From: Ardenticatenales bacterium
Lineage (GTDB): Bacteria; Chloroflexota; Anaerolineae; Epilineales; Epilineaceae
DNA length: 64,000 bases
Reading direction: 5' to 3'
NCBI GenBank assembly: GCA_020853525.1
Contig: JADYYS010000027.1
Span: 62,001-126,000, forward strand
Shown here: piece by piece, positions 2,262 through 19,104 of the stretch
Position numbering within the stretch: the stretch's first letter is position 1
Layout of the letters: each line of letters begins with the position of its first letter
The notes under the pieces: model-generated
What the model was told of the DNA's origin: nothing
What the model saw: only the letters and a program-made list of their open reading frames with translations
Databases searched by the model: none
Made by a program: the position numbers and the translations under genes

Positions 2262-3187
2262 GCACGGTGGCCGAACTGCTGCACGACCTCGTCTTCGACT
2301 ACACGTTGCGCACGATCGCCCTCGGCGCAGCCGTGCTCGGCGTGTCGAGCGGCGTGCTCGGCACGTTCGCGGTGCTCCGCCGCCAGAGCCTGCTCGGCGA
2401 CGCGCTGGCGCACGCGGCCCTGCCGGGGATCTGCCTGGCGTACATGGCCACCGGCTCCAAGGCGCCGGTCGTGCTGATGGTCGGCGCCGGGGTGGCGGGC
2501 TGGCTGGGCGCGCTGCTCTTGCTGAAGATCGTCGCCACGACGTCGCTGGACGAGGACGCGGCGCTCGGGATCGTGCTGGCATCGTTCTTCGGCTTCGGCA
2601 TCGTCCTGCTCACGGTCATGCAGAAGCGACCGGACGCGGGCCAGGCCGGCCTGGACAAGTTCCTGTTCGGCCAAGCGGCGGCGCTCGTCGGCACGCAGGT
2701 GGCCGTCACGGCGCTGCTCGGAACGGCGGCGATCGCCGTCGTCATCGTCCTCTACAAGGAGCTGAAGGTCCTGTGCTTCGACCCGACCTTCGCGCGCACG
2801 ACCGGCCTGGCCCCGCGCTGGCTGGAGGTCCTCGTGACGTCGCTCGTCGTCGTGGCCGTCGTCATCGGCCTGCAGACCGTCGGCGTCGTGCTGATGGCCT
2901 CGATGCTCGTCGGGCCGGTCGTCGCGGCGCGGCAGTGGTCCGATCGCCTGGCCGTCGTCCTCGTCCTGGCCGGTGCGATCGGCGCGGGCGCCGGCGTCAC
3001 GGGCGCCGTGGTGAGCGTGGCCGCCGAGCGCGTGCCGACGGGGCCGGCGATCATCCTCAGCCTGACGGTGTTCGCGCTTGTCTCGATCCTGTTCGCGCCA
3101 CGGCGCGGCGTCGTGCCGGACGCGGTGCGTCGAAGGCGGCGCGGGCTCGTGGCGCCGGTCGAAGTCGAGGCGGAGCCAGCGCGATGA
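2258..3187 (+). CDS. Metal ABC transporter permease, first copy
   Basis: Membrane channel subunit of the importer, about 309 residues from a GTG at 2258 that overlaps the ATPase stop (GTGA). Family landmarks are GTFAVLRRQSLLGDALAH near the N-terminus, FGQAA in the middle, the cytoplasmic segment LYKELKVLCFDPTFA, and the helix LQTVGVVLMASMLVGP. Eight or nine hydrophobic helices can be drawn, as usual for the ABC-3 (ZnuB/MntB/TroC) family. It is followed by a second permease whose start overlaps this stop, so the channel is probably a heterodimer as in TroCD-like systems. Confidence 0.9.
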   Translation: MSTVAELLHDLVFDYTLRTIALGAAVLGVSSGVLGTFAVLRRQSLLGDALAHAALPGICLAYMATGSKAPVVLMVGAGVAGWLGALLLLKIVATTSLDEDAALGIVLASFFGFGIVLLTVMQKRPDAGQAGLDKFLFGQAAALVGTQVAVTALLGTAAIAVVIVLYKELKVLCFDPTFARTTGLAPRWLEVLVTSLVVVAVVIGLQTVGVVLMASMLVGPVVAARQWSDRLAVVLVLAGAIGAGAGVTGAVVSVAAERVPTGPAIILSLTVFALVSILFAPRRGVVPDAVRRRRRGLVAPVEVEAEPAR

Positions 3188-4278
3188 GCTACGGCCTGGC
3201 GATGGTCCTCACCGGCGCCGGCGTCGCCGTGGCGTGCGGCGTCCTGGGCACGTTCCTCGTCCTGCGCCGGATGGCGATGGTGGCGGACGCGATCAGCCAT
3301 GCGATCCTGCCCGGCCTCGTCGCCGGCTACTGGCTGGCCAACGGCCCGAGCCTGGCCGCCGGCCTGCTCGGCGCCGTCGCGGCCGCGCTGCTCATGGTCG
3401 GCTTCGTCGAGCTCCTCACGCGCTCCGGCCTCGTCGCCGGCGATGCGGCGATCGGCGTCGCGTTCCCGGCGCTGTTCGCGCTCGGGACGGTGCTCATCAC
3501 GCGTCACTTCAGCGGCGTCCATCTGGATGCCGACGCGATCCTGTACGGCAACATCGAGTTCGCCGGCCTCGACGTCTGGCGCGTCGGCGGCCGCGTCCTC
3601 GGCCCGCGGCCGGTGTGGGTCGGCGCCGGGCTGGCGCTGGCGAACACGGCGCTCGTCGTCGCGCTCTTCAAGGAGCTGAAGGTCAGCACGTTCGATCCCG
3701 GTCTGGCGGCGACGGTCGGCCTGTCGCCCGCCGCCGTGCAGATCGCGCTGATGACCGCCGTGGCGTTCACCGCCGCCGGCGCATTCTCGGCCGTCGGCGC
3801 CGTGCTGGCGGTGTCGTTCTTCATCGTGCCCGCCGCCACGGCCTACCTCTGGACGGACCGCCTGCCGCGGATGGTCGCGCTCTCCGCCGCGTTCGGCGCC
3901 GCCAGCGCCGTCCTCGGCTTCACCGCCGCCGTCCGCGCCGACACGTCCGTTGCCGGCGCGATGGCCTGCGCCGCCGGCGTGCTGTTCGGCCTGAGCTGGC
4001 TCTTCGCCCCCAAGGCCGGCCTCGTGCCGCGCGCCCGCCAGCTCGCCCGCCAACGCCTCCAGTTCGCCGCCGAAACGCTGGCCGTTCACCTGATGACCCA
4101 CACCGGCACCCCCGCCGAAGCCGAGGAGTGCACGCTGTCCCACCTGGGCGAACACCTGCGCTGGAACGACACATGGGCCACCGCCGTAGTCGCCGAGGCG
4201 GTGCGCCGCGGGTGGGCGGTGCGGGACGGGGAGCGGCTGCGGGTGACGGAGGCGGGGCGGGGGGTGGCGGCGATGTGA
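3184..4278 (+). CDS. Metal ABC transporter permease fused to a C-terminal winged-helix-like domain
   Basis: Second channel subunit, 364 residues, starting ATG at 3184 over the previous stop. Residues 1 to about 285 are an ABC-3 permease: GTFLVLRRMAMVADAISHA, the cytoplasmic LFKELKVSTFDPGLAA, and several helices. The last 75 or so residues are not membrane-like. They run LAVHLMTH... TLSHLGEHLRWNDTW ... AVRRGWAVRDGERLRVTEAGR, which reads as a helix-turn-helix plus wing and resembles the DNA-binding half of DtxR/MntR-type regulators. TroD-type permeases fused to DtxR-like modules are known, so the tail may sense metal or bind DNA. That role is inference. A 370-bp gap follows, holding an inverted-repeat element. 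Confidence 0.88.
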   Translation: MSYGLAMVLTGAGVAVACGVLGTFLVLRRMAMVADAISHAILPGLVAGYWLANGPSLAAGLLGAVAAALLMVGFVELLTRSGLVAGDAAIGVAFPALFALGTVLITRHFSGVHLDADAILYGNIEFAGLDVWRVGGRVLGPRPVWVGAGLALANTALVVALFKELKVSTFDPGLAATVGLSPAAVQIALMTAVAFTAAGAFSAVGAVLAVSFFIVPAATAYLWTDRLPRMVALSAAFGAASAVLGFTAAVRADTSVAGAMACAAGVLFGLSWLFAPKAGLVPRARQLARQRLQFAAETLAVHLMTHTGTPAEAEECTLSHLGEHLRWNDTWATAVVAEAVRRGWAVRDGERLRVTEAGRGVAAM

Positions 4279-4360
4279 CGAAGCGCATCGCCCAATTACC
4301 GCGAACAACCAAAGCGGTTCGCCCGACCCAGATGCAACCCACGACGGCCTGACAAAGATC

Positions 4361-4520
4361 ACCCGCGTAGGGGCGACGCGAATGCGTCGCCCGGCAGGCC
4401 GCCCACATCGCGCCCCCGCCCGCAAGCCACCATGCCACGCGACGACGATGTGTGGGCCGGAGGGCGATTGTGGGGCGGGGGGCCTGCGGGCGACGCGTTC
4501 GCGTCGCCCCTACGCGGGGG
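4361..4520. repeat. MITE-like inverted repeat element
   Basis: Two 40-bp arms (4361-4400 and 4481-4520) are near-perfect reverse complements, with outer sequence CCGCGTAGGGGCGACGCG and inner end GGCAGGCC. Each arm holds its own hairpin (GGGCGACGC, four bases, GCGTCGCCC). The 80-bp middle is also partly self-complementary (GCCCACATCG facing a near match of CGATGTGTGGGC). It has no coding capacity. The form suggests a non-autonomous mobile or REP-like element. The remainder of the 4279-4646 gap shows only a TATCAT hexamer at 4593-4598 that may be a -10 box for the next gene. Confidence 0.7.
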
Positions 4521-4646
4521 TGGGATGCGCGGGCGGCGGCATGGCATCTGGGGCGGGGTGGCGGTGGGATGCGATGGGCGGACTGCGTTGGCTATCATGT
4601 GCGGCGCCGGCCTTCATGGGACAACCCGACAGAGCGTGAGGAACCG

Positions 4647-4919
4647 ATGGACGACGATGCGATCACACGGAGGATCTCCGACGCGATCGCCGGCGACGAC
4701 ACGGACGCGTTCCCGCCCGGCATGTCGGAGCCTTCGCTGCGTGCCCTCGCCGGCGCCGGCTACACGCACCTGTCGCAGCTGACGGGCGCGACGGCCAAGG
4801 AACTGCTTGCGCTTCACGGCATGGGGCCGAAGGGGATCCGGATCCTGGGCGAGGCGCTTGCGGCGGCGGGGCTGTCGTTTGCGGGGGCGGACGGACGCGA
4901 AGCGCGCGGCCGGTCGTAA
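4647..4919 (+). CDS. Helix-hairpin-helix domain protein
   Basis: A 90-residue protein beginning MDDDAITRRISD. Residues 30-75 (LRALAGAGYTHLSQLTGA, then LLALHGMGPKGIRILGEAL) match the RNA polymerase alpha-CTD/HhH fold: a helix, the GxGPKGI hairpin, then a second helix that contacts the DNA or RNA backbone without sequence specificity. The ATG at 4647 has GAGG at a suitable distance. It is a single-domain protein with no conserved neighbour, so the most that can be said is a small nucleic-acid-binding protein. Confidence 0.75.
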   Translation: MDDDAITRRISDAIAGDDTDAFPPGMSEPSLRALAGAGYTHLSQLTGATAKELLALHGMGPKGIRILGEALAAAGLSFAGADGREARGRS

Positions 4920-4954
4920 GCGACGAGTCCGCGCATCCGGCCTCGCTCCAGCCA

Positions 4955-5342
4955 TCACTCCGTCCAGCCCACCAACGTCGGCGCCGTCACCCGCCACCCC
5001 TGCCCGTCGTTCGCCAGCCCGATGGAGCCGCCGGTCGACGGCCCGTCGCGGTAGTCGATGACGGCACGCGTCAGGGCAGCGTCGAGGACGATGAGCGTTG
5101 GGTCCGGCAGCATCGGCAGCTGAAATCCGCCGGCCATCGTCCGCTCGATCGGCAGCCGGCGCCGCAGCCATTCGTAGCGCGTGCTCGCCAGCGGATAGAG
5201 CAGCGCTTCGACGTCGATGACACCGAGCGGGGGATCACGGGCGTAGTCGTCGCCGAGGTAGTGATGGATGGCGAGCGCCTCATCGTCCGTGAGGTAGAGC
5301 GCTGGGGATCGAGGGTCTGGTGGACAGGGTGGTCCGGGCCAC
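4955..5342 (-). pseudogene. Hypothetical protein, 5' end apparently frameshifted
   Basis: A protein-like frame reading YLTDDEALAIHHYLGDD ... TRYEWLRRRLPIERTMAGGFQLP ... APTLVGWTE ends at 4955 but has no ATG, GTG or TTG near its sensible N-terminus. A GTG at 5342 with a perfect GGAGG eight bases upstream opens VARTTLSTRPSIPSAL in a neighbouring frame that stops about 20 codons later, just where the good frame begins. The interval is 388 nt, not divisible by three. One indel around 5280-5300 would join the start to the body as a protein of about 128 residues. It may be a real frameshift or a sequencing error. No family was recognised. Confidence 0.45.
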
Positions 5343-5496
5343 GTTGGGAACCTCCGGCTTACTTTCCGGCGTATGGGACGATACGATGCGCGAACGGCGT
5401 GAGGGGCGGCTGATCGCCGACAGATGGCTCGATGAGTCCAGCCTATCGAGCGAACGGTACGGATCCGCGCGACGAAACACCAGGAGGACATCGGAC

Positions 5497-6135
5497 ATGC
5501 GGACTGAGGGCGACGCACGCGTGCCTGAGGACAAACCGTTGGACGGCATACGGACCCCGTCCTCCGCGAAGCAACGACGATGGGCGCTCGCCCTGGTCGC
5601 GCTCCCGCCGGCGATCGGGATCGCCACGGCGCTGCTGGCCCCGGAGCCACACGGGCACTGGGTGGAGCATCTGAGCTCGGTCGGGTTCAAGTCGACGCAG
5701 CTGGCGGCCCTGGCCGTGGCCGCCGTGCTCCTTCGCCGTTCGTGGAACGCGATCCTGCTCCTCGTGCTGGCGGCCGTCGCCGTCGGCATCGTGCTGCAGG
5801 TGGCCGGCGACTGGAGCGTGGCGCGATCGATCTGGCGCACCACGGGCGATCCCGGAGGTGGCGCCGGCTACGCGTGGGGGCACGAGACGTCCGGGCTGGG
5901 CGACCTGATCGTCGTGATCGCCGGGCTCGCCTTCCCGCTCGTCCTCGTCGTCACGCGGCGCGCGCGCGTCTGGGTGGCCGTGGTCGTTGCCGTGCTCGCG
6001 ATCGTCCCGCCGCCCTTTCTCTGGCCGGCGGCGGGACTCTTGGTGGCGATGGTCTACGGGTACGTCGGTGGGGGTGAGCTCAGGCCGGTGAAGGGGATCG
6101 CCCCGGCGATGCGTGGGAATGTCGATCCGCTGTAA
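5497..6135 (+). CDS. Hypothetical multi-pass membrane protein
   Basis: A 212-residue protein from an ATG at 5497 with AGGAGGAC seven bases upstream. After about 30 soluble residues there are hydrophobic segments WALALVALPPAIGIATALL, LAALAVAAVLL, AILLLVLAAVAVGIVLQV, LIVVIAGLAFPLVLVV and VWVAVVVAVLAIVPPPF, giving about five transmembrane helices. A polar loop with GDPGGGAGYAWGHE lies between the third and fourth helices. No family or function was recognised. It is divergent from the frameshifted gene to its left. Confidence 0.7.
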   Translation: MRTEGDARVPEDKPLDGIRTPSSAKQRRWALALVALPPAIGIATALLAPEPHGHWVEHLSSVGFKSTQLAALAVAAVLLRRSWNAILLLVLAAVAVGIVLQVAGDWSVARSIWRTTGDPGGGAGYAWGHETSGLGDLIVVIAGLAFPLVLVVTRRARVWVAVVVAVLAIVPPPFLWPAAGLLVAMVYGYVGGGELRPVKGIAPAMRGNVDPL

Positions 6136-6281
6136 CGCGGCAGCCTCGTCACCCAGAGCATCCCCCGCATGGTGCGGATGGAAACGTGTCCGAGGAGGTG
6201 CAAGTACGGCGTCCGCTCCGGCGGCTCGGTACAATCAGCGGATCGCCGCATCCCACACCCCGACCTGCGCCCAGGACCATC

Positions 6282-6845
6282 ATGCGCCCGTTCGACACGG
6301 TCACCCTCACCACCGAGCGCCTGTCCCTGCGCCCGCTGGTCCCGTCCGACGCCGAGGCGCTGTTCGCCGTGTTCTCCGATCCCCAGGTCATGCGCTACTG
6401 GAGCACGGCCCCGTGGTCATCCGTCGACGCGGCACACGAACTCATCGCCAAGGACACGGCTGCTCATGCAGCGGGCGAATATATCCGGTTGGGCATCGCG
6501 CTTCAGGGCACCGAAGTGATCTTTGGCACATGCACATTGTTCGATTTCGTAGCGCAGAGCAGGCGGGCTGAGCTCGGGTACGCCATGGCCAGCGCGATGT
6601 GGGGGCACGGCTACATGCAAGAAGCACTCCGCGCGCTTGTGGCATTCGGGTTCGACGAACTGGACCTGAATCGCATCGAAGCCGACATCGATCCGCGCAA
6701 TGCGGCATCGGCAAGGAGTCTGGCGCGGCTGGGTTTCGTGAAGGAAGGACACCTGCGGGAACGCTGGATCGTCGAAGGTGAGGTGTCGGACTCCGACATG
6801 TACGGATTGTTGCGGAGCGATTGGCTGGCGACGAACACCCGGTGA
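6282..6845 (+). CDS. GNAT family N-acetyltransferase (RimJ/RimL-like)
   Basis: A 187-residue cytoplasmic acetyltransferase using acetyl-CoA. The opening TVTLTTERLSLRPLVPSDAEAL is the standard first strand and helix of RimJ/RimL-type GNATs. The AELGYAMASAMWGHGYMQEAL segment is the beta4/acetyl-CoA-loop motif, and NRIEADIDPRNAASARSLARLGFVKEG is the C-terminal signature. The substrate (a protein N-terminus, amino sugar or small amine) cannot be deduced. The start at 6282 is chosen because residues upstream of it are not conserved-looking. A TACAAT box lies at 6230-6235. Confidence 0.88.
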   Translation: MRPFDTVTLTTERLSLRPLVPSDAEALFAVFSDPQVMRYWSTAPWSSVDAAHELIAKDTAAHAAGEYIRLGIALQGTEVIFGTCTLFDFVAQSRRAELGYAMASAMWGHGYMQEALRALVAFGFDELDLNRIEADIDPRNAASARSLARLGFVKEGHLRERWIVEGEVSDSDMYGLLRSDWLATNTR

Positions 6846-6869
6846 CGATCGGCTCAACTGGAGGCCCCG

Positions 6870-7661
6870 ATGGAATCGCAACATGCCCCGACCGACAGTC
6901 CGACGGCTGCCCCGCTCGCGCTCTTGCGCCGCCACCCCCTGATCACGTTCTTCACGCTCGCCTACGCCATCTCGTGGGCAACGTTCTACCTCCTCGACGG
7001 TCCCGTGATCTTCACGATCGGCCCGTTCGTCGCGGCGATCCTCACGGCGCTGATCACGGATGGAATGGGCGGCCTGCGCGACGTCGCCCGCCGCATTCTG
7101 CGCTGGCGCGTCAAGCGGATCTGGATCGCGGCCGCGTTCGTCGTGCCGGTGGCCATCGGCCTCGCCGTCGCGGCGCTGACGACGGTCGTCGGCGGCGCGC
7201 CGATGCCGGTCCTCGAACGGCTCGGCCCGTGGTACAGCCCGCTCCTGATGTTCGCCATGCTCCTGTTCACGGCCGACACGCTGTTCGAGGAGACCGGCTG
7301 GCGCGCCTTCGCCATGCCCCGGTTTCCCGCCGACCGCTCGCCGCTGGCGAACACGCTGGTGCTGGGCGTGCTGCTGGCCGGTTGGCATCTACCGGTCGCA
7401 CTGTCGGAACCCGGCGCGCTCGGCCCGTACCTGGTGGCGACGATCGCATCGGCGGTGGTGACGAACTGGATCTACTACAGCGGTCGGGAGAGCGCGTTCC
7501 TGGCATGGATGTACCACACGGCCGCGAACACGGCGGGGCAGTCCTTCATGCCGCTGTTCGGGGGGGAAAGCCGGGTGACGTACTTTTGGGTGCTGGCGGG
7601 GGTGAACGTTGCGGTGGCGGCGGCGATCGTTCTGGTGAATGGGCGAGAGCTCCGGCGCTAG
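6870..7661 (+). CDS. CPBP family intramembrane metalloprotease
   Basis: An integral membrane protease of the CPBP (CAAX protease / bacteriocin-processing, Abi) family, 263 residues. The hallmark motif 1, EETGWR (EExxxR), sits near residues 139-144. Motif 2 is GWHLP, and a later histidine in WMYHTAANT completes the metal site. About seven hydrophobic helices are visible. Members process prenylated or bacteriocin-type substrates or act in immunity to peptides. Nothing nearby suggests a substrate. It starts 24 bp after the acetyltransferase on the same strand, so the two may be cotranscribed. Confidence 0.87.
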   Translation: MESQHAPTDSPTAAPLALLRRHPLITFFTLAYAISWATFYLLDGPVIFTIGPFVAAILTALITDGMGGLRDVARRILRWRVKRIWIAAAFVVPVAIGLAVAALTTVVGGAPMPVLERLGPWYSPLLMFAMLLFTADTLFEETGWRAFAMPRFPADRSPLANTLVLGVLLAGWHLPVALSEPGALGPYLVATIASAVVTNWIYYSGRESAFLAWMYHTAANTAGQSFMPLFGGESRVTYFWVLAGVNVAVAAAIVLVNGRELRR

Positions 7662-7758
7662 GCCGCCGGTTGCGTGATCGACCGGAACAACTTAGGCTTG
7701 GTCTACCTGACTTCGTCCAACGATGTGCAACCGAGTTGTAACGCACACAGGAGCCACT

Positions 7759-7962
7759 ATGTCGTTCCAAGCCTATATCGACAATATCAAGGCAAAAACC
7801 GGCAAGACACCGGACGATTTCAAGCGCCTAGCCGAGGATAAGGGCTTGCTGGAGCCAGGGGTGAAGGCCGCGGCAATCGTTGCCTGGCTCAAGGAAGACT
7901 TCGATCTGGGTCACGGGCACGCCATGGCGATCTATGCCACATTCAAGGGCAAGACTGAGTAG
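7759..7962 (+). CDS. DUF4287 domain protein
   Basis: A 67-residue soluble protein beginning MSFQAYIDNIKAKTGKTPDDF. The pattern (Y-x2-I-x3-TGKTP-x-DF, then KAAAIVAWLKEDFDLGHGHAMAI) is the DUF4287 family, found alone or fused to DUF5655. The function is unknown. AGGAG lies five bases before the ATG at 7759. Its AT content is a little higher than that of its neighbours. The next 290 bp up to pheT hold no supported feature. Confidence 0.85.
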   Translation: MSFQAYIDNIKAKTGKTPDDFKRLAEDKGLLEPGVKAAAIVAWLKEDFDLGHGHAMAIYATFKGKTE

Positions 7963-8252
7963 TCAATCCGCCAAAGAGATGACGGATGAACAGACTGATT
8001 CGCACCAAGGAGAACCGTTGGCATCACTGGGCGTAACGTCCATTGGCCGCCTTGCGGCTGCACGGTTCAGATGGTAGAGGCGCTGCCTGCTGCGCCCCTA
8101 CCGCCGGCCATCACTGGACGATGTCCGAAGGCCAGTTCTCGGCGACGAGACGCGCGCGTGCTTGGCGTTGTTCACGGAATTGCTGGATACGATGCGCTGA
8201 CGAACGCCCGTGGTGAGCGGTGCTTGACTTGCCTCGACGCCTATTCCATCAC

Positions 8253-10934
8253 CTACCCCCTAACCTCCCCCCCCACCGCCTTCCCCAACGCCCGCACGAT
8301 CTGCTCCCGCACCCGATCCACACTCGCCCCCTCCAGCGTCTTGTCCATCGACTGGAACCGCAGCCGCAGCGCCAGGCTCTTCCGCCCCTCCCCCACCTGC
8401 GGCCCGCGATACACGTCGAACAGCCGCACGCCCACCAGCAGCTTGCCGCCGGCGGCGCGCACAGCCGCCTCGACGTCTGCGGCCGGGATCGCCTCGTCCA
8501 CCAGGACGGCCAGGTCGCGCTCGACGGGCGGGTACGGGCTGAAGGCGGCGATCGGTCGGATCGCTCCGGCCAGCGCGTCGATCGCCTCGAGGTCGAGGTC
8601 GGCGACGGCGATGCTGCGCTCCGGCAGGTCCCAGCGCCGGCGCACCTGCGGGTGCAGCTCGCCGACGTACCCGAGCGCGCGCGGCGTGCCGTCCGCGTCG
8701 ACGGCCGACACCACGGCGGTGCGGCCCGGATGCAGCGAGGCGTGCCGGCCGGGCGCGAAGTGCAGCGTGTCGATCCCGAGCGCCCCGAGGACGGCCTCGA
8801 CGGCGCCCTTGGCATCATAGAAATCCATGGGCCGCGCCTCGCCGCCCCGCCAGTCGTCGGCGCGCTGCGGGCCGGCGAGGAGGAGCGCCACGTGGCGCGG
8901 CTCGTCGGGCAGCGTCGACGGCGACGGTGACGTCCCGGCGGGCCAGTGATACGTCGACCCGACCTCGAAGAGCGCGACGCGATCCGTGAAACGCAGGTTG
9001 GCGGCAGCGGCATCGAGCAATCCGGTCAGCATGCTCTGGCGCATCACGCTCCGCTCGGGGCTGATCGCATTGGCGATGCCGACGTAGCGCGCTTCCGCCG
9101 GCAGGCCGCCGGCGCCCACCTCGTGGCCGACGCCACCCACGTCGCCGACGTCTACCACGTCGCCGCCCGCACCGACGTCATCCGCAATCCCCGCGATCCC
9201 CGCGACGACCGTCTCTCCCTCGTGCACCACCGACGTCATCCGGTAGCTCACGATCTCCTGCAGCCCCGCCCCCACGCACGCATCCCGCGTCGCCTCCTCC
9301 AGCCACTGCGTGCGGTTCTCGCGCTGCGCCGGCAGCGCGTCGGCCAGCGGGACGCTCGGCAGGCGGTCGAGGCCCCAGACGCGGACGATCTCCTCGACGA
9401 TGTCGGCCGGCAGCTCGATGTCCACGCGATGGGGCGGGACGACGGCCGCCAGGGTATCGCCGTCGACGACGGCCGTGAAGCCGAGGCGCGCCAGGATCGC
9501 CTCGATGTCCGCGACGGGAATCTCGGCGCCGAGCAGGCGATCGATCTCCGACAGCGGCATGACGACCTCGACGGCGGGTCGCGGGCGCGGGTGGACGTCG
9601 ACGATGCCGGGCGCCACGCGGCCGCCGGCATGCTCGGCCAGCAGCCGGCTGCCGACGGCGCTGCCGGGGTCGATGAGCGCCGGCGGGACGTCGCGGCTGA
9701 AGCGCCAGCTGGACTCGCTCGGCAGCTTCAGGTCACGGCTGGCGCGGCGGATGGACGGGAAGTGAAAAGTCGCGGCCTCGAGCAGGATCGTCCGCGTCGC
9801 ATCCGTCACCTCGGTCTCCGCCCCGCCCATCACCCCGGCGATCGCGATCGGGCCGGCGTCATCCGTGATCAGAATCGTGCCGGCGTCGAGGGCACGGTCG
9901 ATGCCGTCCAGCGTCGTCATCCGCTCACCGGGCGTGCTGCGCCGAACGGTGATCGTCGGCACGACGCCGGCGCCCGCAGACGCGGCAGTCGCGTCGCCCG
10001 TCGATGCTCCGACACCCGAAGCCGCAACGGCCCGCGCCTTCAGCCGGTCGTAGTCGAACGCGTGCAAGGGCTCGCCCCACAACAGCATCGCGTAGTTCGT
10101 CGCGTCCACGACCGCGTTGATCGGCCGCATGCCGGAGAGCCGCAGCCGGCGCTGCAGCCACGCCGGGCTCGGCCGCGTCGCGTCGACGCCCGTGACGATC
10201 CGCGCGCTGTACCGCGGACACGCCTCGTCGTCGTCGATAACGACGCGGCACCACGTCGCGGCAGCCGGCAGCGACGCATCGACGACGGCGTCCGCGTCGT
10301 CCAGCCGCCACTCGGGGGGCGTGAACGGGCGATCGAGCAGCGCCGCCACCTCGCGGGCGATGCCGACGACGTTGCTGGCGTGGGCGTAGTTGGCCGTCAG
10401 CTCGAGCGTGAGCACGGCATCGCCGAGGACGTCGGCGATGGGTGCGCCGACCGGTGCGTCGTCGTCCAGGATCAGGATGCCGTCGTGATCTTCCGACAAC
10501 CCGATCTCCTTCTCCGAGCAGACCATCGCGTCGCTCATCACGCCCCGCACCGGCCGGCCCTTCAGCTTCACCTTCACCCAGCCTTCGGCGTGGCCGTCGT
10601 ACAGCTCCACGCCCTCGCGCGCGAAAACGACCTTCATGGGCTTGTCGAAGTCACCCGCATCGCGAAACGCCAGCAAGTTCGGCGCGCCCGTCACCACGCG
10701 GTGCGGCGCGCCGGCGCCCCAGTCGACGTCCGCCAGCACGAGCCGCTCCGCATCGGGATGCGACAGCACGCGCAGGACGTTGCCCACGACGAGCCGCTCG
10801 CGGTCCCACCAGTCGCCGATGCGCTCGACCTTGTCGACCTCGAGGCCGGCGACGGTCAGGCGTTCGGCGACGTGCTCGGGGGTGACGCCGGTGAGATCGA
10901 CGTGTTCGGAGAGCCAGGACCAGACGAGTTTCAT
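8253..10934 (-). CDS. pheT: Phenylalanyl-tRNA synthetase beta subunit
   Basis: Beta chain of the heterotetrameric PheRS, which charges tRNA-Phe. It has 893 residues and starts ATG at 10934 with GGAGG five bases before. The N-terminus MKLVWSWLSEHVDL is typical, followed by an OB-fold tRNA-binding segment (ERLVVGNVLRVLSHPDAERL), the B3/B4 editing region (WCRVVIDDDEACPRYSAR...), the B5 domain (IVEEIVRVWGLDRLP) and a C-terminal FDX-ACB anticodon-binding domain (FSPYPPVERDLAVLVDE). It is longer than the usual 780-820 residues. Part of the excess is a low-complexity Gly/Val/Asp insert (GDVVDVGDVGGVGHEVGAGG) near residues 590-615. It lies downstream of pheS under the same T-box. Confidence 0.95.
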   Translation of the reverse strand: MKLVWSWLSEHVDLTGVTPEHVAERLTVAGLEVDKVERIGDWWDRERLVVGNVLRVLSHPDAERLVLADVDWGAGAPHRVVTGAPNLLAFRDAGDFDKPMKVVFAREGVELYDGHAEGWVKVKLKGRPVRGVMSDAMVCSEKEIGLSEDHDGILILDDDAPVGAPIADVLGDAVLTLELTANYAHASNVVGIAREVAALLDRPFTPPEWRLDDADAVVDASLPAAATWCRVVIDDDEACPRYSARIVTGVDATRPSPAWLQRRLRLSGMRPINAVVDATNYAMLLWGEPLHAFDYDRLKARAVAASGVGASTGDATAASAGAGVVPTITVRRSTPGERMTTLDGIDRALDAGTILITDDAGPIAIAGVMGGAETEVTDATRTILLEAATFHFPSIRRASRDLKLPSESSWRFSRDVPPALIDPGSAVGSRLLAEHAGGRVAPGIVDVHPRPRPAVEVVMPLSEIDRLLGAEIPVADIEAILARLGFTAVVDGDTLAAVVPPHRVDIELPADIVEEIVRVWGLDRLPSVPLADALPAQRENRTQWLEEATRDACVGAGLQEIVSYRMTSVVHEGETVVAGIAGIADDVGAGGDVVDVGDVGGVGHEVGAGGLPAEARYVGIANAISPERSVMRQSMLTGLLDAAAANLRFTDRVALFEVGSTYHWPAGTSPSPSTLPDEPRHVALLLAGPQRADDWRGGEARPMDFYDAKGAVEAVLGALGIDTLHFAPGRHASLHPGRTAVVSAVDADGTPRALGYVGELHPQVRRRWDLPERSIAVADLDLEAIDALAGAIRPIAAFSPYPPVERDLAVLVDEAIPAADVEAAVRAAGGKLLVGVRLFDVYRGPQVGEGRKSLALRLRFQSMDKTLEGASVDRVREQIVRALGKAVGGEVRG

Positions 10935-11230
10935 GGGATCCTCCGTTCATCTTGTGGCCGACCCCTCCCGGCCGCACTTCGTGCGGCCTGCCCTCCCCAG
11001 CTGTCGCTGGAGAGGGCTAACGGATTGCGGTCGAGCGTCTCATCGTCCGTCGAAGTGCCTAACCAAGCCAGGACGGGTTGAGGCGGGTCCGAATCCTGTG
11101 GTTGCGCCAAGGTTCAATTGACCGCTCTTTGGGAGCCTCTAACTCACCACCCTCGCAACAACTGGATCCTTTCTCCACCTCCGGTGGGGAAAGGTGGCAG
11201 CGCCGAAGGCGCTGACGGATAGGGGTGGGG
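10935..11230. repeat. pheS-pheT spacer with REP-like hairpins
   Basis: This 296-bp spacer has no gene. It contains a perfect hairpin GGCCGCAC-TTC-GTGCGGCC at 10970-10988, then an imperfect CCCTC/GAGGG hairpin (10991-11016). Nearer pheS there is CCACCTCCGGTGG (about 11175-11187) and CAGCGCCGAAGGCGCTG (11198-11214). The clustered short palindromes look like dispersed intergenic repeats, not a terminator, since no T-run follows. They may trim or stabilise the pheST message. Confidence 0.5.
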
Positions 11231-12286
11231 TTAGCCGAACTGCTCCAGAAACCGCACATCGTTCCCCCAGTAATGCCGTATGTCGTCGATCCCATGCGCC
11301 ATCATCTGCGCCCGCATCGGCCCCAGCCCGAAGGCGAAGCCGCTGACGACGGCCGGATCGTAGCCGCCGTTCGCGAGCACGTTCGGGTGGACCATCCCGC
11401 AGCCCAGGATCTCCAGCCAGCCGGCGTCCTTGCACAGCCGGCAGCCGGCGCCGTCGCACAGGCCGCAGCTGACGTCGACCTCGGCGGAGGGCTCGGTGAA
11501 CGGGAAGTAGCTCGTGCGGAAGCGCGTCCGGCGGTTCGGGCCGTAGTAGCGGTGCACGAAGCCGTCGATCGTGCCGCGCAGGTTGGCCATCGTGATGTGC
11601 GGGCCGACGGCAAGCCCCTCGACCTGGGTGAACTGGATCTCGCTGCGCGGCGTGATCTTCTCGTTGCGGTAGACCATGCCGGGCAGGACGATGCGGATGG
11701 GATCGGGCGCGTACGCGCCCATCGCGCGGATCTGGCCGGGCGAGGTGTGCGTGCGCAGGAGGACCTGCTCGTTCGTGCCCGCGATGTAGAACGTGTCCTG
11801 CATGTCGCGCGCCGGATGGTGCGGCGGGTGGTTGAGGAGCGTGAAGTTCACGTCGTCCAGCTCGACCTCGCGGCTGAGGAAGACCTGGAAGCCCATCTCC
11901 GCGAAGATGTCCAGCATCCGGCGCAGGATGATCGTGCTCGGGTGCAGCCGCCCGCGCGGCGGCGGCGTCCCGGGCAACGTGACGTCGATCGCCTCGGCCG
12001 CCAGCGCGGAGGCCATGGCATCCGCCTGTCGCGACGACGCCGCCGCCTCGTACGCCGCCTCGAGCGTCCGGCTGGCCGCGTTCACCGCCGCCCCGAACGC
12101 GGGTCGGTCGGCCGCGTCGAGTGCGCCGACGGAGCGCAGGAGCGACGTGATCCGGCCGCCCTTGCCCAGCCACTCGCCCTTCCATGCGGTCAGCGCCGCG
12201 TCGCCCTTCGCCGCGTCAAGGGCAACTTCGGCCTCGCGTCGCAGCATCTCGATCCTCGCGATCGTCGCGATCGGCTCGCTTCCCAT
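11231..12286 (-). CDS. pheS: Phenylalanyl-tRNA synthetase alpha subunit
   Basis: Catalytic alpha chain of PheRS, 351 residues, from an ATG at 12286 with GGAGGG seven bases upstream. Class II motifs are clear: motif 2 (VYRNEKITPRSEIQFTQVEG), FRTSYFPFTEPSAEVDV, and motif 3 (GFAFGLGPMRAQMMAHGI). The N-terminal coiled region includes WLGKGGRITSLL. A pair CGLCDGAGCRLC in the catalytic domain recalls the zinc-ribbon-like insert seen in some bacterial PheS. It is transcribed with pheT and preceded by a T-box leader. Confidence 0.95.
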   Translation of the reverse strand: MGSEPIATIARIEMLRREAEVALDAAKGDAALTAWKGEWLGKGGRITSLLRSVGALDAADRPAFGAAVNAASRTLEAAYEAAASSRQADAMASALAAEAIDVTLPGTPPPRGRLHPSTIILRRMLDIFAEMGFQVFLSREVELDDVNFTLLNHPPHHPARDMQDTFYIAGTNEQVLLRTHTSPGQIRAMGAYAPDPIRIVLPGMVYRNEKITPRSEIQFTQVEGLAVGPHITMANLRGTIDGFVHRYYGPNRRTRFRTSYFPFTEPSAEVDVSCGLCDGAGCRLCKDAGWLEILGCGMVHPNVLANGGYDPAVVSGFAFGLGPMRAQMMAHGIDDIRHYWGNDVRFLEQFG

Positions 12287-12397
12287 CGCCGTACCCTCCT
12301 TCGCGCCCCTGCTTCGCGCCACTGTTTCGCGCCACTGTTTCGCACCACCGCGCGACCCTTCGACGTTGTCGCCTCGCGACATACGCGCGCCGCGCAA

Positions 12398-12715
12398 CAA
12401 GAAAACGTCCGCCCCATCAAGGGACGGACGTCTCGTCCGCGGTACCACCCTCGTTGGCCGCTCGCGCGGCCCCCTCTGCCCGACGGCGGCATGTCGATGT
12501 CGCCCCAAAGGCGAACCTGTGGGCGAACACGTGCCGTGATCGGCGGCCCCGCTAACGGTGGGCATCCGGGCAGGACTACGCAGGTCGACTACGACCCTTC
12601 CCCCTGCCGGCTCGGGAGTGAACTTCCGTCGGTTCCGTCCGAGAGGGGCTTGCAGTCACGGCCCCTCATCCCTGGCGGCGTTGCCGGCGTACTCTCTCCG
12701 TCATGGCCTGTTGTG
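12398..12715 (-). promoter_or_regulatory. T-box riboswitch leader (tRNA-Phe sensing) of pheST
   Basis: Read on the minus strand, the pheS leader carries the diagnostic T-box sequence AGGGTGGTACCGCG (12451-12438), followed by a terminator stem with a T-run. Upstream, stem I starts with GGAGAGAGTACGCCGG, holding the AGTA motif, and returns with GCCGGC. Its specifier loop reads GGAAGTTCACTCCC, with a TTC phenylalanine codon at 12622-12620. This matches the enzyme it controls. Uncharged tRNA-Phe should pair with TTC and with the TGG bulge of the T-box to favour the antiterminator. The 5' boundary is approximate. Confidence 0.9.
12402..12431 (-). terminator. T-box-controlled intrinsic terminator before pheS
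   Basis: On the minus strand ACGTCCGTCCC and GGGGCGGACGT pair around a short TTGAT loop, followed by TTTTCTT. The 5' arm overlaps the region following the T-box sequence, as expected for mutually exclusive terminator and antiterminator folds. Confidence 0.85.
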
Positions 12716-12786: not shown

Positions 12787-14976
12787 CTACTCCAGTCGTC
12801 CGCCCCAGCTCCCCGTTCCCCGACACCCCAACCGCGCCCCAATGCCCCCGAAGGCCAGCCCGAGCGTCGCCGCGTCCCCGACCACGCGCGCTTCGCCCCG
12901 CCCGCCCGCGATCCCGTCCAGCGCCGCCCGGTCCACCTCGGCGCCGAGGCCGACGGCGAACACGATGGCACCGGCGGCTCGGAGCGCATCGGCGGCGGCG
13001 AAAGCGGCCTCGGGCGCGTCGGGCGACGAGCGGCCGTCCGTCAGCAGGACGACGGTTCCGCGCGCGTCCGGGCGGCGATCGGGCGAGGCCAGAACGGCGC
13101 CCGCCGACAACAGGCCGGCGCCCATGGCCGTGCCGTTTGCCAGCGGCGCGGATCGCAGCGCGTCGACGACGTCGGGGCCGACGCTGCCCAGCGGCCGGCG
13201 GACGAGGGCCGTGCGGTCGAACGTCACGAGCGCGATGCGGTCGCGACGCGCGTCGAGCCGCTCGACGAGCGCCGCAAGGGCCAGGGCCGCGGCCGCCTGC
13301 TTCGTCCCACCGCCCGTCAATCGCTCCGCCATGCTCGTCGAGGTGTCGATCACGGCGACGACGTCGTTCGGCGGGCCGGCGAGGCAGGCTTCGGAGAGGG
13401 CCAGCGGGAGGTAGAGACGGAAGGCGCGCGGGGTGACGGTGGCCGTCGGGAGGGTTGCGGGCGGGACGGGCGTCGCCGGCTGCTCGGCGACGTGGATCGG
13501 AGCGGAGACGGCGGCGGCGATCGGGCGGATCGCGTCGGTCCCGCTCCAACCGTAGGCCATGATGCCGATGCCGCCGTCGCCGGGTCCGGTCGCCACGAGC
13601 TCCGCCTCGAGATCCAGCGCATCCGGCGCGATAGGGTCGACACCGATGATGCTCCACCACGCGGTGCGCGGATCCCAGTCCGGTTGGCCTTCCGGCCGAC
13701 CGTCCCGCCACGTTCGGACGACGCGCAGGTGATCCGGAACCCGCAGCGAGACCACCGTGAGCTTCAAACGGAGCCCATCGCCGTCGGGCAGTCGAAGCCG
13801 ATAGGATGCGCGGAACCGCTCACCGACGATGACCGACGTCGCGTCGACGCGGAGGACGTTCGTGAGCGGCGTCGTGTCGGCCACCGGCGTCGGCGCGAGG
13901 CCGGTGCGCGCGTCGAGGGCGTCGACGTGCGGCAGTCGGAAGTTGAACTCGCCGCCGCGCCCGCGGGAGTCGACGAACGTCCCCACGGCGGTCGTGAGCA
14001 CGGGCAGGTCCACGCCGGCAGCAAGCGTCCGGACACCCAGGGTGATCGTCGTGCCCTCTTTCGGAATGCCGGCCAGCTGCCACGCCAACGTGCGTCCGTC
14101 GTTCGCGGCGGGCGCAGGTTTCACGAGCGCGGGGACGAGTTCAACTGCCGGGCCGAGTGTCTCGGTGATCGCGATGCCATCGATCACGATGTTCAAGAAC
14201 CGTCGCTGGAACGCTTCGATCCCGTCGATGACGCCACGGAAGGTAGCGAGGGTGAACGCATGTGCCGGCGAGGTGGCCATCGTCCCAAAGCACGAGACCG
14301 CACAGTCCGAGGTGGCGCAGACGGTGAAGAGCGCCACGCCCTGCCCCTTGATCTCATCCGCCGTCCGGATCAGCTCGTCGCAGCCGCCGCTGTTGGCGCC
14401 GTCCGCGACGACAACGATCGCCTCGTGGACCGGGCTACCCTCGCCGGCGAGATCACGCCCCCGGCGCAGGGAGTCGAGGGCGAGGCGCAGCGCACCGGCG
14501 ATGTCCGAGCCTCCTGACGCGCCGACGCGCCCAACACAGCCTGAGGCTTGCGCCGCGCGGTTCGTCAGTTGGCACAGCACCTTCGAGGGCTGGTTGATCT
14601 CCACGACGCCGATCGAAGTTCCTGGATGGTCCTTGAGATCCAGGCGATCGATGAGCTCGCGCGCGTTGCGCTTGACATCCGTCGAGAGCGTGCCTGCCAT
14701 CGAGCTCGAACCGTCCAGCACGAGCACGACATTCACGAGCCCAACTTCGCCGGCGCACAGCGTGGTCACCGTCGATGTCACTTCGTACGTGCTGCCGACG
14801 AGCGCCAGCCGCGCTGGACCGGCGAGACTCTGGATCGCCACGCACGACGACTTGCTCGGCAGCGGTGCCTGTGCGCGCGTCGGCAGCGCGACAACGGCGC
14901 CTGCGGCGAGGGCTGCGGCGATGGTGACGGCAAGCGCGGTTGCCAAGGCACGTCGGGATGAGACGATGATGAACAT
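12787..14976 (-). CDS. Secreted protein with two von Willebrand factor A domains
   Basis: A 729-residue exported protein from an ATG at 14976 with GGAGG six bases before. A signal peptide (ALATALAVTIAAALAAGAVV) is followed by a first VWA domain at about 55-270, with MIDAS DGSSS and later DGANSGG. A middle beta-rich region leads to a Pro/Thr linker and the motif FRLYLPLALS. A second VWA domain (about 520-715) has MIDAS DTSTS, TFDRTA and LLTDGRSS. Paired VWA domains usually mediate metal-dependent protein adhesion at the surface. It lies about 110 bp downstream of the anti-sigma gene, so it may belong to the regulon or operon of that sigma factor. The ligand is unknown. Confidence 0.88.
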   Translation of the reverse strand: MFIIVSSRRALATALAVTIAAALAAGAVVALPTRAQAPLPSKSSCVAIQSLAGPARLALVGSTYEVTSTVTTLCAGEVGLVNVVLVLDGSSSMAGTLSTDVKRNARELIDRLDLKDHPGTSIGVVEINQPSKVLCQLTNRAAQASGCVGRVGASGGSDIAGALRLALDSLRRGRDLAGEGSPVHEAIVVVADGANSGGCDELIRTADEIKGQGVALFTVCATSDCAVSCFGTMATSPAHAFTLATFRGVIDGIEAFQRRFLNIVIDGIAITETLGPAVELVPALVKPAPAANDGRTLAWQLAGIPKEGTTITLGVRTLAAGVDLPVLTTAVGTFVDSRGRGGEFNFRLPHVDALDARTGLAPTPVADTTPLTNVLRVDATSVIVGERFRASYRLRLPDGDGLRLKLTVVSLRVPDHLRVVRTWRDGRPEGQPDWDPRTAWWSIIGVDPIAPDALDLEAELVATGPGDGGIGIMAYGWSGTDAIRPIAAAVSAPIHVAEQPATPVPPATLPTATVTPRAFRLYLPLALSEACLAGPPNDVVAVIDTSTSMAERLTGGGTKQAAAALALAALVERLDARRDRIALVTFDRTALVRRPLGSVGPDVVDALRSAPLANGTAMGAGLLSAGAVLASPDRRPDARGTVVLLTDGRSSPDAPEAAFAAADALRAAGAIVFAVGLGAEVDRAALDGIAGGRGEARVVGDAATLGLAFGGIGARLGCRGTGSWGGRLE

Positions 14977-15086: not shown

Positions 15087-16460
15087 TCAGTCGCCCAGCG
15101 CGCCCCGCAGCTGGAAGTCGATCCCGTCCGCCGGCCGCAGGCGCGCCACCGGCACTTGGTCGACGGCCACGATGTCGCCGTCCCCGCCCCACCATGCCAG
15201 CGCCGGCGCCGCTGCGCGCCAGTCCCCGGCCGCGGCGACGAGCCAGCCGCCCTCGTCCACCGCCAGCCGATACCGCCCCTCGCCGTCGGCGAGCGTGGCC
15301 GCGACGAACGCCCGATACCCGCCGCGGTCGACGTCCGGCGCGGCGGCCACGACGAGCGCGCCGGGCACGGGCGCGCCGGCGGCGTCGACGACGCGGCCCG
15401 AGATCCGTCCGGGCGGCGCGGCCGCGAGCCGGAAGTCGAGGCCGACCGCGTCGCCGGCCGCAACGCGCAGCGGCGCCCCGTCGATCGGCGACGCCGCCGC
15501 ACCGTTCCAGGCGGTCACGTACGCCGCGCCCTCGGCCGCGATCGACCACGTGCCCGGCGAGAGCGTCAGGGCATACGTCCCGTCCGCCCCGCTCGTCGTC
15601 TCGACCGCACCGACACCGTCGGCAACCGGCCGCGCGATGACGCGCACCTCGGCGCGGGCGAGGCCGTCCGGGCCGGCCACGCCGCCGGTGACGACGGCGA
15701 CGAGCGTCGCGGGCGTCGGATCGGGCGCGGCGGCGGTCGGATCGGGCGGTGGCGGGGACGGTGCGGTGGGCACGCTGTTCGGCGTGGCCGCGACGACGGG
15801 CGGATCGACGGGCGCGCCGCGGTCGGGCGGTTGCGGGGGCGAGGACGGCGGCTGGGCGGCGGCGGCGCTTGGGAGAGCGGCGGCATCGCTCGGCAGGGTG
15901 GACAGCGGCGCTGGCGCAGACGACGGACTGCCCGGCGTCGACGCGGCCACGGGACGGGCCGGACGCCCATCGACTCGCGTGATCACCGGGCGCTCCGCGA
16001 CGGAGGCGGACGCCGCCAGCCGGCGTACCGGCGTCGGCGCTCGGAGCGCCAGCGTCGGCCCGGCGCGGTCCTCGGCGGAGGCTGAGGCGGGCGCGGCGGA
16101 CCGAAGGGGGGTCGGCGGCGGCACGGTGCCCGTCCGGCGGACGGTCGCACCGATGGCCAAGGCGACGGCGGCGGCGACGGCGAGCCAGGCGCGGGCGGAC
16201 CGCACCAGGGGCACCGGCACCAGGGGTGCGGCCACGGCGGCCCGGCGCTCGCCGGGCGCGCGCCAGGCCGGCAGGGGCGCCGAGGCGAACGAGCCGTACG
16301 CGGCCGCGGCATCGCCGGCGGATCGCCAGTCGGCCGCCGCGCGGGCGCAGTCCGCGCAGTCGGCGATGTGCGCGTCGACACGGCAGCGGGCGGCATCGTC
16401 GAGCGTGCCGGCGGCCCATTCCATCAGGAGCAGCTTCACGTCAGCGCACTTCGCCCACAT
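15087..16460 (-). CDS. Transmembrane anti-sigma factor with zinc finger and carboxypeptidase-regulatory-like repeats
   Basis: A 457-residue membrane-spanning regulator. The cytoplasmic N-terminus holds a ZAS-type zinc motif HIADCADC (about 33-40), expected to bind the sigma factor encoded just upstream. One helix (AWLAVAAAVALAIGATV) crosses the membrane. A long Pro/Ala/Ser-rich linker then leads to two beta-sandwich carboxypeptidase-regulatory-like repeats, each with GxxxxGTYAL or EGRYRLAV. The ATG at 16460 is preceded by GAGGT and lies inside the last codons of the sigma gene (20-bp overlap). Such a layout lets an outside signal on the extracytoplasmic repeats control sigma release. The signal is unknown. 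Confidence 0.82.
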   Translation of the reverse strand: MWAKCADVKLLLMEWAAGTLDDAARCRVDAHIADCADCARAAADWRSAGDAAAAYGSFASAPLPAWRAPGERRAAVAAPLVPVPLVRSARAWLAVAAAVALAIGATVRRTGTVPPPTPLRSAAPASASAEDRAGPTLALRAPTPVRRLAASASVAERPVITRVDGRPARPVAASTPGSPSSAPAPLSTLPSDAAALPSAAAAQPPSSPPQPPDRGAPVDPPVVAATPNSVPTAPSPPPPDPTAAAPDPTPATLVAVVTGGVAGPDGLARAEVRVIARPVADGVGAVETTSGADGTYALTLSPGTWSIAAEGAAYVTAWNGAAASPIDGAPLRVAAGDAVGLDFRLAAAPPGRISGRVVDAAGAPVPGALVVAAAPDVDRGGYRAFVAATLADGEGRYRLAVDEGGWLVAAAGDWRAAAPALAWWGGDGDIVAVDQVPVARLRPADGIDFQLRGALGD

Positions 16461-17235
16461 CGCCCACCTCACCTTCGACCGACCCTGGTGCATCCGTTTG
16501 GCGCTTTCCGTCGCGGCGCTCACCAAGTTGGCGCTCACCGAGCCGCGCCCGCAGACTGGCCTTGCCGCGGCTCATCCGGCTCTTCACCGTGCCGCCCGGT
16601 GCGCCGACAACCTGAGCGATCTCGTCGACGCTCAACCCGTGATAGAAGTAGAGGACGAGCGCCGTCCGCTGGTCCTCCGGCAGCGCCGCCACCGCCGCGG
16701 CCAGCTCGACGCGCGCGTCGGGTTCGATGCCGTGCGGCTCGGCCGCCGCGTGCATGAACGAGCGAGCCCCGGACGCCGCCACCGCTGCCGATCCGATCCA
16801 CGCCCCCAGCCGTTCGCGCTTCAGCCGCCGCAGCGCGTTGCAGGCCTTGTTGTGCGCGATCGACAGCAGCCACGTCCGCACCGCGCTCGCCCCGCGAAAC
16901 GTCCCGGCCGCGCGCCACGCCGCCAGCATGACGTCGTGCAGCAGGTCCTCGGACAACGCGCGGTCGGCCGTGCGGCTGATCAGGAAGGCCAGCACGGCCG
17001 GTCCGTGCCGCTCGTACACCTGCCGGTGGGCATCCGCGTCGCCCTGCGCAACGCGCACGAGCAACTCGCGGTCGATCCGTTCACGGGCGACTCGCTCGCG
17101 CTCGACGTCGCCGTCAAGCGCACCCGGACGCGCCGCATCCGCGTCGACCGGGCACTGCCCTGCGGTGCTCGGCCCGTCGATGGGTGAGGCAATGGGCGAG
17201 GCAATGGGTGCGACGAATCGTCCGGACACGACCAT
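16441..17235 (-). CDS. ECF-type RNA polymerase sigma factor
   Basis: A 264-residue group 4 sigma-70 factor from an ATG at 17235 (GAGG six bases upstream). An N-terminal tail of about 50 low-complexity residues is followed by region 2 ([21 protein letters not shown] ... [21 protein letters not shown] ... [17 protein letters not shown]). Region 4 is [45 protein letters not shown], with a clear helix-turn-helix. It lacks regions 1 and 3, as ECF factors do. The partner anti-sigma overlaps its 3' end. A truncated homologue of its N-terminus lies 125 bp upstream on the same strand. Confidence 0.93.
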
Positions 17236-17359
17236 GCGGATCCTCGGGTCGCGACGGTGGCTGGCAATGGGTCTCCGGACAACGTCCGCCGGTTCCACGA
17301 AATCAGGATACCCGATCGCGTTCCTGCCGTGCGTGCAACGCGTGATCCTCCCCCAACCC

Positions 17360-17590
17360 TCACTGCACCCGCATCGCCACCGGCAGATACAGCCGCGTCT
17401 CCGGCCCAGGCCGTTCGGTCGTGCCCGACGGTTCCGGCGACGGTGTCGAGGCGGCGGCATGCCGCTCGTACAACTGCCGATGCGCCTCCACGTCGCCGGA
17501 GGCGATGCGGCGCAGCAGCGCCACTTCGGCCGCCGCGTCCGCATCGATGGGCGCTGCTTGGGCGAACCTCAACGTCCCGGGCACGACCAT
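17360..17590 (-). CDS. Short sigma-like chimera ending in a YLP motif
   Basis: A 76-residue frame from an ATG at 17590 with GAGAGG five bases upstream. Its start (MVVPGT) and the segment [20 protein letters not shown] copy the N-terminus and first region-2 helix of the neighbouring sigma factor ([26 protein letters not shown]). It then leaves the family and runs through a Pro/Ser/Thr stretch to [13 protein letters not shown], a tail resembling those of exported proteins in this window. It lacks the DNA- and polymerase-binding parts of a sigma factor. It could be a decayed duplicate or a small regulator competing for the anti-sigma. The start and ribosome-binding site are intact. Confidence 0.5.
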
Positions 17591-17675
17591 GCAGTCCTCT
17601 CGGGCGGGTGGTGGCGTTGGCAACAGACTGGGTGCCGCGCGCGCAGCGAAAGGTTTCGCGCTCCGGCCATCCTCC

Positions 17676-17681
17676 TATAAT
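17676..17681 (+). promoter_or_regulatory. Probable -10 box of asnS
   Basis: A consensus TATAAT lies about 100 bp before asnS in an otherwise GC-rich spacer. The expected -35 position holds only a poor match (TTTCGC around 17654). No T-box-like or other leader structure was seen between it and the start codon. Confidence 0.5.
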
Positions 17682-17781
17682 GGCGCATCGGATCCTCGTG
17701 CGCCGTTTCCCGGTGCTACGTTCGTTCGATCGTGCGGCGGACGCTCCGTCGCCCCAACCCGCCCGCTCTGGAGCCAACCTG

Positions 17782-19104
17782 ATGTCCGATCCCAAGCCCG
17801 CCCCCGTGACGACGACGATCGCCGCCGCCGGAGCGCACGTCGGAGTGGACGTGCGCGTTCAGGGCTGGGTGAACAATCGCACGGACAAGGGCAAGCTTCA
17901 GTTCATCTCGCTGCGCGACGGCACGGGCACGATGCAGTGCGTCGCGTTCGAAAAGGACGTATCAGCGGAGGCGTTCGAAGCCATCCGGTCGCTCACCCAG
18001 GAGTCCGCGGTCGTCCTGACCGGCGCGCTGCGGGCCGACGCGCGAGCGCCGGGCGGGATCGAGCTCGGCATCGCGGCGATCGAGGTCGTGTCGCTGGCCG
18101 AGCCGGACTACCCGATCCAGCCCAAGGAGCACGGCACCGGCTTCCTGATGGACCAGCGCCACCTCTGGATCCGCTCGCCGCGCCAGGTGGCGATCCTGCG
18201 GATCCGCGCCACGATCATCCGTGCGATCCGAGGCTGGCTCGACGGCGAGGGCTTCGTCGGCGTCGATACGCCGATCCTGACGCCGTCCGCGTGCGAGGGG
18301 ACGAGCACGTTGTTCGCCACGGACTACTTCGGCAAGCCGGCCTTCCTGGCGCAGAGCGGCCAGCTCTACAACGAGGCGAACGCCGCAGCGCTCGGCAAGG
18401 TCTACTGCTTTGGGCCGACCTTTCGCGCCGAGAAGAGCAAGACACGCCGTCACCTGACCGAGTTCTGGATGGTCGAGCCCGAGATCGCGTTCGCCGACCT
18501 CGAGGACATCATGGACATCGAGGAGCGGTTCGTCAGCCACATCGTCCAGACGGTGTTGGCGGAGCACCGCTCGCTGCTGACGGACGTCCTCGAGCGCGAC
18601 GTGAGCGCCCTCGAGCGGATCGTCGCGCCGTTCCCGCGGCTGAGCTACGACGACGCCGTCGCCAAGCTGCAGGCCGGGCCGTTTCCGGACTTCCCGTGGG
18701 GCGAGGACTTCGGCGCGCCGCACGAAACGTTCCTGGCAGAACAGTCCGATCGACCGCTCTTCGTCTATCACTACCCGACCGCGGTCAAGGCGTTCTACAT
18801 GGAGACCGTCGCCGACCGGCCCGAGGTCTGCCGCTCCGTCGACCTGCTGGCCCCCGAGGGCTACGGCGAGATCATCGGTGGCGGCCAGCGCACGACGAGC
18901 GTCGATCTGCTCGAGCAGCGGATCGTCGAGCACGGGTTGAACCGCGACGACTACCTGTGGTACCTGGACCTCCGGCGCTACGGCAGCGTGCCGCACAGCG
19001 GTTTCGGGCTCGGAGTGGAGCGGACGGTGGCCTGGATCTGCAACCTGGGCCACGTGCGCGAGACCACGGCCTTCCCGCGCATGCTCGACACGATCTACCC
19101 CTGA
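17782..19104 (+). CDS. asnS: Asparaginyl-tRNA synthetase
   Basis: Class IIb synthetase charging tRNA-Asn, 440 residues from an ATG at 17782 with GGAG upstream. The N-terminal OB-fold anticodon domain ([26 protein letters not shown]) is followed by [19 protein letters not shown], the hallmark of AsnRS. Motif 2 is [25 protein letters not shown] and motif 3 is [14 protein letters not shown]. The sequence [19 protein letters not shown] and the short length favour AsnRS over AspRS. Direct charging of Asn is therefore expected; whether GatCAB also serves here cannot be seen. Confidence 0.93.

Follow-up and report, generated by a model that had tools for sequence, protein, structure and literature searches.

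A short chimeric frame beside an ECF sigma factor gene in an Ardenticatenales bacterium, probably a remnant of a sigma gene copy joined to an exported-protein tail

The locus and its genes

The window considered here is a 64,000-nucleotide stretch of an Ardenticatenales bacterium contig, and the feature under study is a 76-codon micro-gene found between asnS and an intact ECF sigma factor gene (Table 1). The micro-gene and the sigma gene are encoded on the same strand, with 124 bases between the former and the start of the latter, and are followed on this strand, downstream of the sigma gene, by the genes for an anti-sigma-like protein with a zf-HC2 zinc finger and for a vWA protein. The start and ribosome-binding site, described as intact in an earlier sequence-only reading of this DNA, are indeed undamaged: the frame begins with ATG and has GAGAGGA just upstream. 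The sigma reading frame is open upstream of its likely start (16441-17568, minus strand) and, across most of the micro-gene, runs in a different frame from it. Beyond the sigma/anti-sigma/vWA cluster lie pheS- and pheT-like genes (8253-12565, minus strand), and the cluster is thus flanked by tRNA synthetase genes.

Table 1. Features of the micro-gene and its surroundings, in window coordinates
Feature	Position	Strand	Remarks
Chimeric micro-gene frame, 76 codons	17360-17590	minus	ATG start and stop; single full-length copy in own genome
Micro-gene leader	17591-17640	minus	Ribosome-binding site GAGAGGA at 17595-17601; homologous to sigma-gene leader
Micro-gene residues 25-47	17450-17518	minus	ECF sigma region 1.2/2.1 helices; sigma homology ends at residue 47; helices in AlphaFold2 model
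Micro-gene residues 48-76 and stop	17360-17449	minus	Proline-rich linker, then 11-residue tail; motif at 17373-17395
Intact ECF sigma factor gene, 264 aa	16441-17235	minus	Pfam Sigma70_r2 at 74-140, Sigma70_r4_2 at 176-228
Anti-sigma-like protein	15087-16442	minus	zf-HC2 zinc finger and CarboxypepD_reg domains; start approximate
vWA protein	12787-14976	minus	Two Pfam VWA stretches; RLYLPLA between P/T-rich linker and second vWA domain
Class II aminoacyl-tRNA synthetase, D/K/N type (Pfam), called asnS here	17782-19104	plus	Divergent from, and upstream of, the micro-gene

The sigma-like part of the frame

The micro-gene had been described as beginning like the neighbouring ECF sigma gene, with near-identical first codons and region-2 helix. 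For the first codons this is well founded, and the likeness extends to the leader: the micro-gene opens with ATG GTC GTG CCC GGG and the sigma gene with ATG GTC GTG TCC GGA, and the alignment of leader and start to the sigma gene reaches a score of 38, compared with 30 or less at 1257 control ATG sites elsewhere in the window, 29 or less at the 156 of these control sites that have a ribosome-binding-site-like sequence upstream, and maxima of 34 (long comparison) and 27 (short comparison) in dinucleotide shuffles. The helix, on the other hand, is homologous rather than near-identical, with 15 of 23 residues shared between residues 25-47 of the micro-gene and residues 58-80 of the sigma factor. 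At the DNA level the helix is 87% identical over 38 bases, and the protein score of micro-gene against sigma factor is 88 (62 or less in 2000 shuffles).

Homology stops at sigma residue 80, and the micro-gene lacks both the sigma-2 core and sigma-4. The tail DNA gives no significant match to the remainder of the sigma gene (p=0.51). In the sigma part the annotated frame has the better codon scores (0.19-0.26 per codon), and its codon usage there looks coding. NCBIfam returned weak matches to ECF sigma N-termini, the best of them (E 0.003) far below cut-off, while a Pfam search of the micro-gene gave no match to Sigma70_r2 at E up to 1 and no Sigma70 region 4 domain.

The closest match to the micro-gene helix, at 81% over 21 aa, is an ECF sigma encoded in another genome of the family (G002:C262); the neighbouring sigma is less close, and a recent duplication is therefore unsupported. 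Several vWA-type genes (L009, approximately 3100-11350, minus strand) are found within a few kb of this closest sigma gene, a grouping that suggests repeated duplication of such clusters.

The YLP tail

The sequence-only reading also had the frame ending like exported proteins of this window, and this resemblance is real. The motif was searched in the 4.27 Mb genome as a DNA pattern for a hydrophobic residue, YLP, a second hydrophobic residue and A or V, with the reversed pattern as control, and is over-represented, at 37 sites versus 2 control sites. All 37 sites were inspected; L102 gave no motif and was dropped. In 14 of the remaining 36 the motif lies no more than 15 residues from a stop (the micro-gene and 13 other frames), 17 directly precede a vWA-like segment as judged by eye, and 5 are in other settings, including 3 near an N-terminus; vWA-like segments were called by a motif of DxSxS type. 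The size of the excess differs between other genomes: the two same-family genomes have 34 versus 4 and 38 versus 14 sites (motif versus control), and no excess was found in many more distant genomes. Within the window the element is present at 17373-17395, 13413, 44979 and 56895, with further examples collected as loci L080-L116, and YLP tails often come after a P/T-rich linker.

Like the YLP-tailed exported proteins of this lineage, the micro-gene combines a proline-rich linker with a C-terminal R-L-Y-L-P-V-A tail, but it differs from them in having neither an exported domain (no Pfam domain above cut-off in the micro-gene) nor, by eye, a signal-peptide-like N-terminal stretch. No convincing DNA match to the tail and its 3' flank was found in the local vWA gene, the sigma remainder or the other YLP sites; the best match among the YLP sites is a subtilase-like frame in L116, whose score is inflated because the compared sites were picked by motif.

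One alternative is a sigma-gene stump whose leftover frame merely happens to end in a YLP-like sequence. An open frame is cheap in this window, where 72% of random 29-codon stretches are free of stops, and the tail codon score of 0.023 per codon falls in the zone where coding and non-coding values overlap (coding 5th percentile -0.03, antisense-frame 75th percentile 0.05). Against a chance ending, the stricter pattern R-x-YLP-x-A-x has only 7 sites in 4.27 Mb and no control hits, and the other 6 are in exported or vWA-type frames, assigned by eye except for the window's own vWA gene. We regard a chance ending as unlikely.

More useful as a lead than the micro-gene itself is the YLP element, which recurs as a tail or as a linker in this genome's exported proteins. 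It may represent a sorting or anchoring element that has yet to be described, and one narrow literature search found nothing on it.

Conservation, origin and possible roles of the frame

The sample comprises 41 genomes, namely the window's own, the sole representative of its genus among those searched, and 40 relatives. Matches to the micro-gene were obtained in 2 of the 41, the own genome and G002, where the match is an ordinary sigma gene, and no counterpart was found in the 40 relatives. A class-wide sample gave hits in 12 of 396 genomes, again including these two; the 10 remaining loci were weak and, on inspection, judged to be chance matches (repeat proteins, coiled-coil proteins and antisense frames). 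The only match in one GTDB scan was a full sigma gene, with no micro-gene counterpart. The same two-gene arrangement, proposed earlier as something to look for in relatives, is conserved in none of the 40 relatives and in no other genome of the class-wide sample. In six relatives no sigma gene was found in the asnS-bearing stretches, two of which extend hardly at all upstream of asnS, so that no intermediate is seen. A literature search found no description of such a micro-gene, and a search of solved structures returned only a radial-spoke protein (E 0.078), which was taken as chance. As 50% of random 76-codon stretches in this window are stop-free, the open frame of the micro-gene is not significant, and neither the open-frame statistics nor the codon scores give evidence of selection on it as a gene.

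We consider it likely that the micro-gene is a chimeric remnant, in which a deletion has fused part of a sigma gene copy with the 3' end of a gene for a YLP-tailed exported protein, and it is probably ordinary genomic debris. In this model, the ECF sigma gene would once have had a duplicate immediately upstream of it, of which the leader, start and first 47 codons survive. A deletion would have linked this duplicate to the final codons of an exported-protein gene, the reading frame being kept by chance. The tail donor would have encoded an exported protein carrying both a proline-rich linker and a YLP tail; it probably belonged to a duplicated sigma/anti-sigma/vWA cluster, in the form of a vWA gene or one like it. 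The deletion, the order of these events and the lack of any function are what we infer. Of the two possibilities raised in the earlier reading, a frozen recombination product fits best, given the sigma 5' end, the abrupt end of homology, the exported-type tail and the lack of a counterpart in relatives. The two parts are traceable to two gene types, the tail to its type and not to a parent gene, and the adjacent cluster itself contains a vWA gene with RLYLPLA. Counting against a remnant are the undamaged frame, start and ribosome-binding site, the coding-like codon usage of the sigma part, the failure to find a parent gene for the tail, the lack of an intermediate in relatives and the closer similarity of the helix to the G002 sigma. 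Truncated ECF sigma paralogues and 5' fragments (pseudogenes) are similar in that a leader, a start and the region 1.2/2.1 helices stand beside an intact ECF sigma gene, whereas in the micro-gene the sigma part gives way to an exported-type tail, not to decayed sigma sequence, and the frame is still open. A simple tandem duplication as the source of the 355-base spacing was rejected, the stretch after the micro-gene stop giving no match to the stretch upstream of its start (p=0.22). As a remnant the micro-gene is of little importance, beyond suggesting that sigma/anti-sigma/vWA clusters turn over in this lineage.

Instead of being a remnant, the frame could be a uORF or encode a leader peptide, such that its translation adjusts expression of the sigma gene downstream. 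Its strand, its intact ribosome-binding site and its position 124 bases before the sigma start would suit such a role, but no conserved arrangement was found in the relatives and no terminator-like site in 17000-17900, and we hold it to be quite improbable.

An anti-anti-sigma decoy, the other possibility raised in the sequence-only reading, found no positive support. In a working decoy, the region 2.1 helix of the peptide would occupy the sigma-2-binding helix of the anti-sigma and thereby free the neighbouring sigma factor, and the intended target, the zf-HC2 anti-sigma, is encoded beside the sigma gene. AlphaFold2, run on the single sequence, places helices at residues 17-30 and 34-47 and leaves the rest unstructured (mean pLDDT 70.8 overall and 91-92 over residues 21-40); if translated, the frame would yield a hairpin of two helices followed by a disordered tail. 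Contact positions were mapped through an alignment of the sigma factor to 1OR7 together with a three-residue chain offset derived from E. coli RpoE numbering. Table 2 of PMC7406223 gives 25 contacts at 15 sigma positions that are common to four crystal structures, positions at which sigma factors are known to contact class I anti-sigmas. Equivalents of 5 of these 15 positions (E. coli RpoE 22, 23, 26, 27 and 31) are retained in the stump, the first four being H, R, Y and E in the micro-gene and the neighbouring sigma alike, whereas the other 10 (position 35, region 2.2 and sigma-4) are missing. The same H, R, Y and E are also kept in the ordinary G002 sigma, and these residues therefore need no decoy to explain them. 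With 5 of 15 positions, two helices and a disordered tail, the product falls short of a complete sigma-like fold presenting the anti-sigma interface; Pfam recognises no sigma-2 domain in it, and no counterpart was found in the genomes searched. A working decoy is, in our view, very improbable, and more improbable still is a minimal cytoplasmic version, in which a sigma 1.2/2.1 hairpin on a re-used exported-protein tail competes with the ECF sigma for helix 4 of the anti-sigma. Because the surviving helix holds 5 of the 15 contact positions and the helices are modelled, weak binding of the stump to the anti-sigma is conceivable, though nothing points to it.

PhyR, an anti-sigma antagonist of alphaproteobacteria, has a full sigma-like domain and a receiver domain. 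The micro-gene is comparable in carrying sigma-like sequence that could occupy an anti-sigma, but its sigma homology covers only about 23 residues and it lacks a receiver. Sigma-factor mimicry of the PhyR type is named in PMC4814048, and the micro-gene, were it a decoy after all, would represent a natural sigma mimic of very small size.
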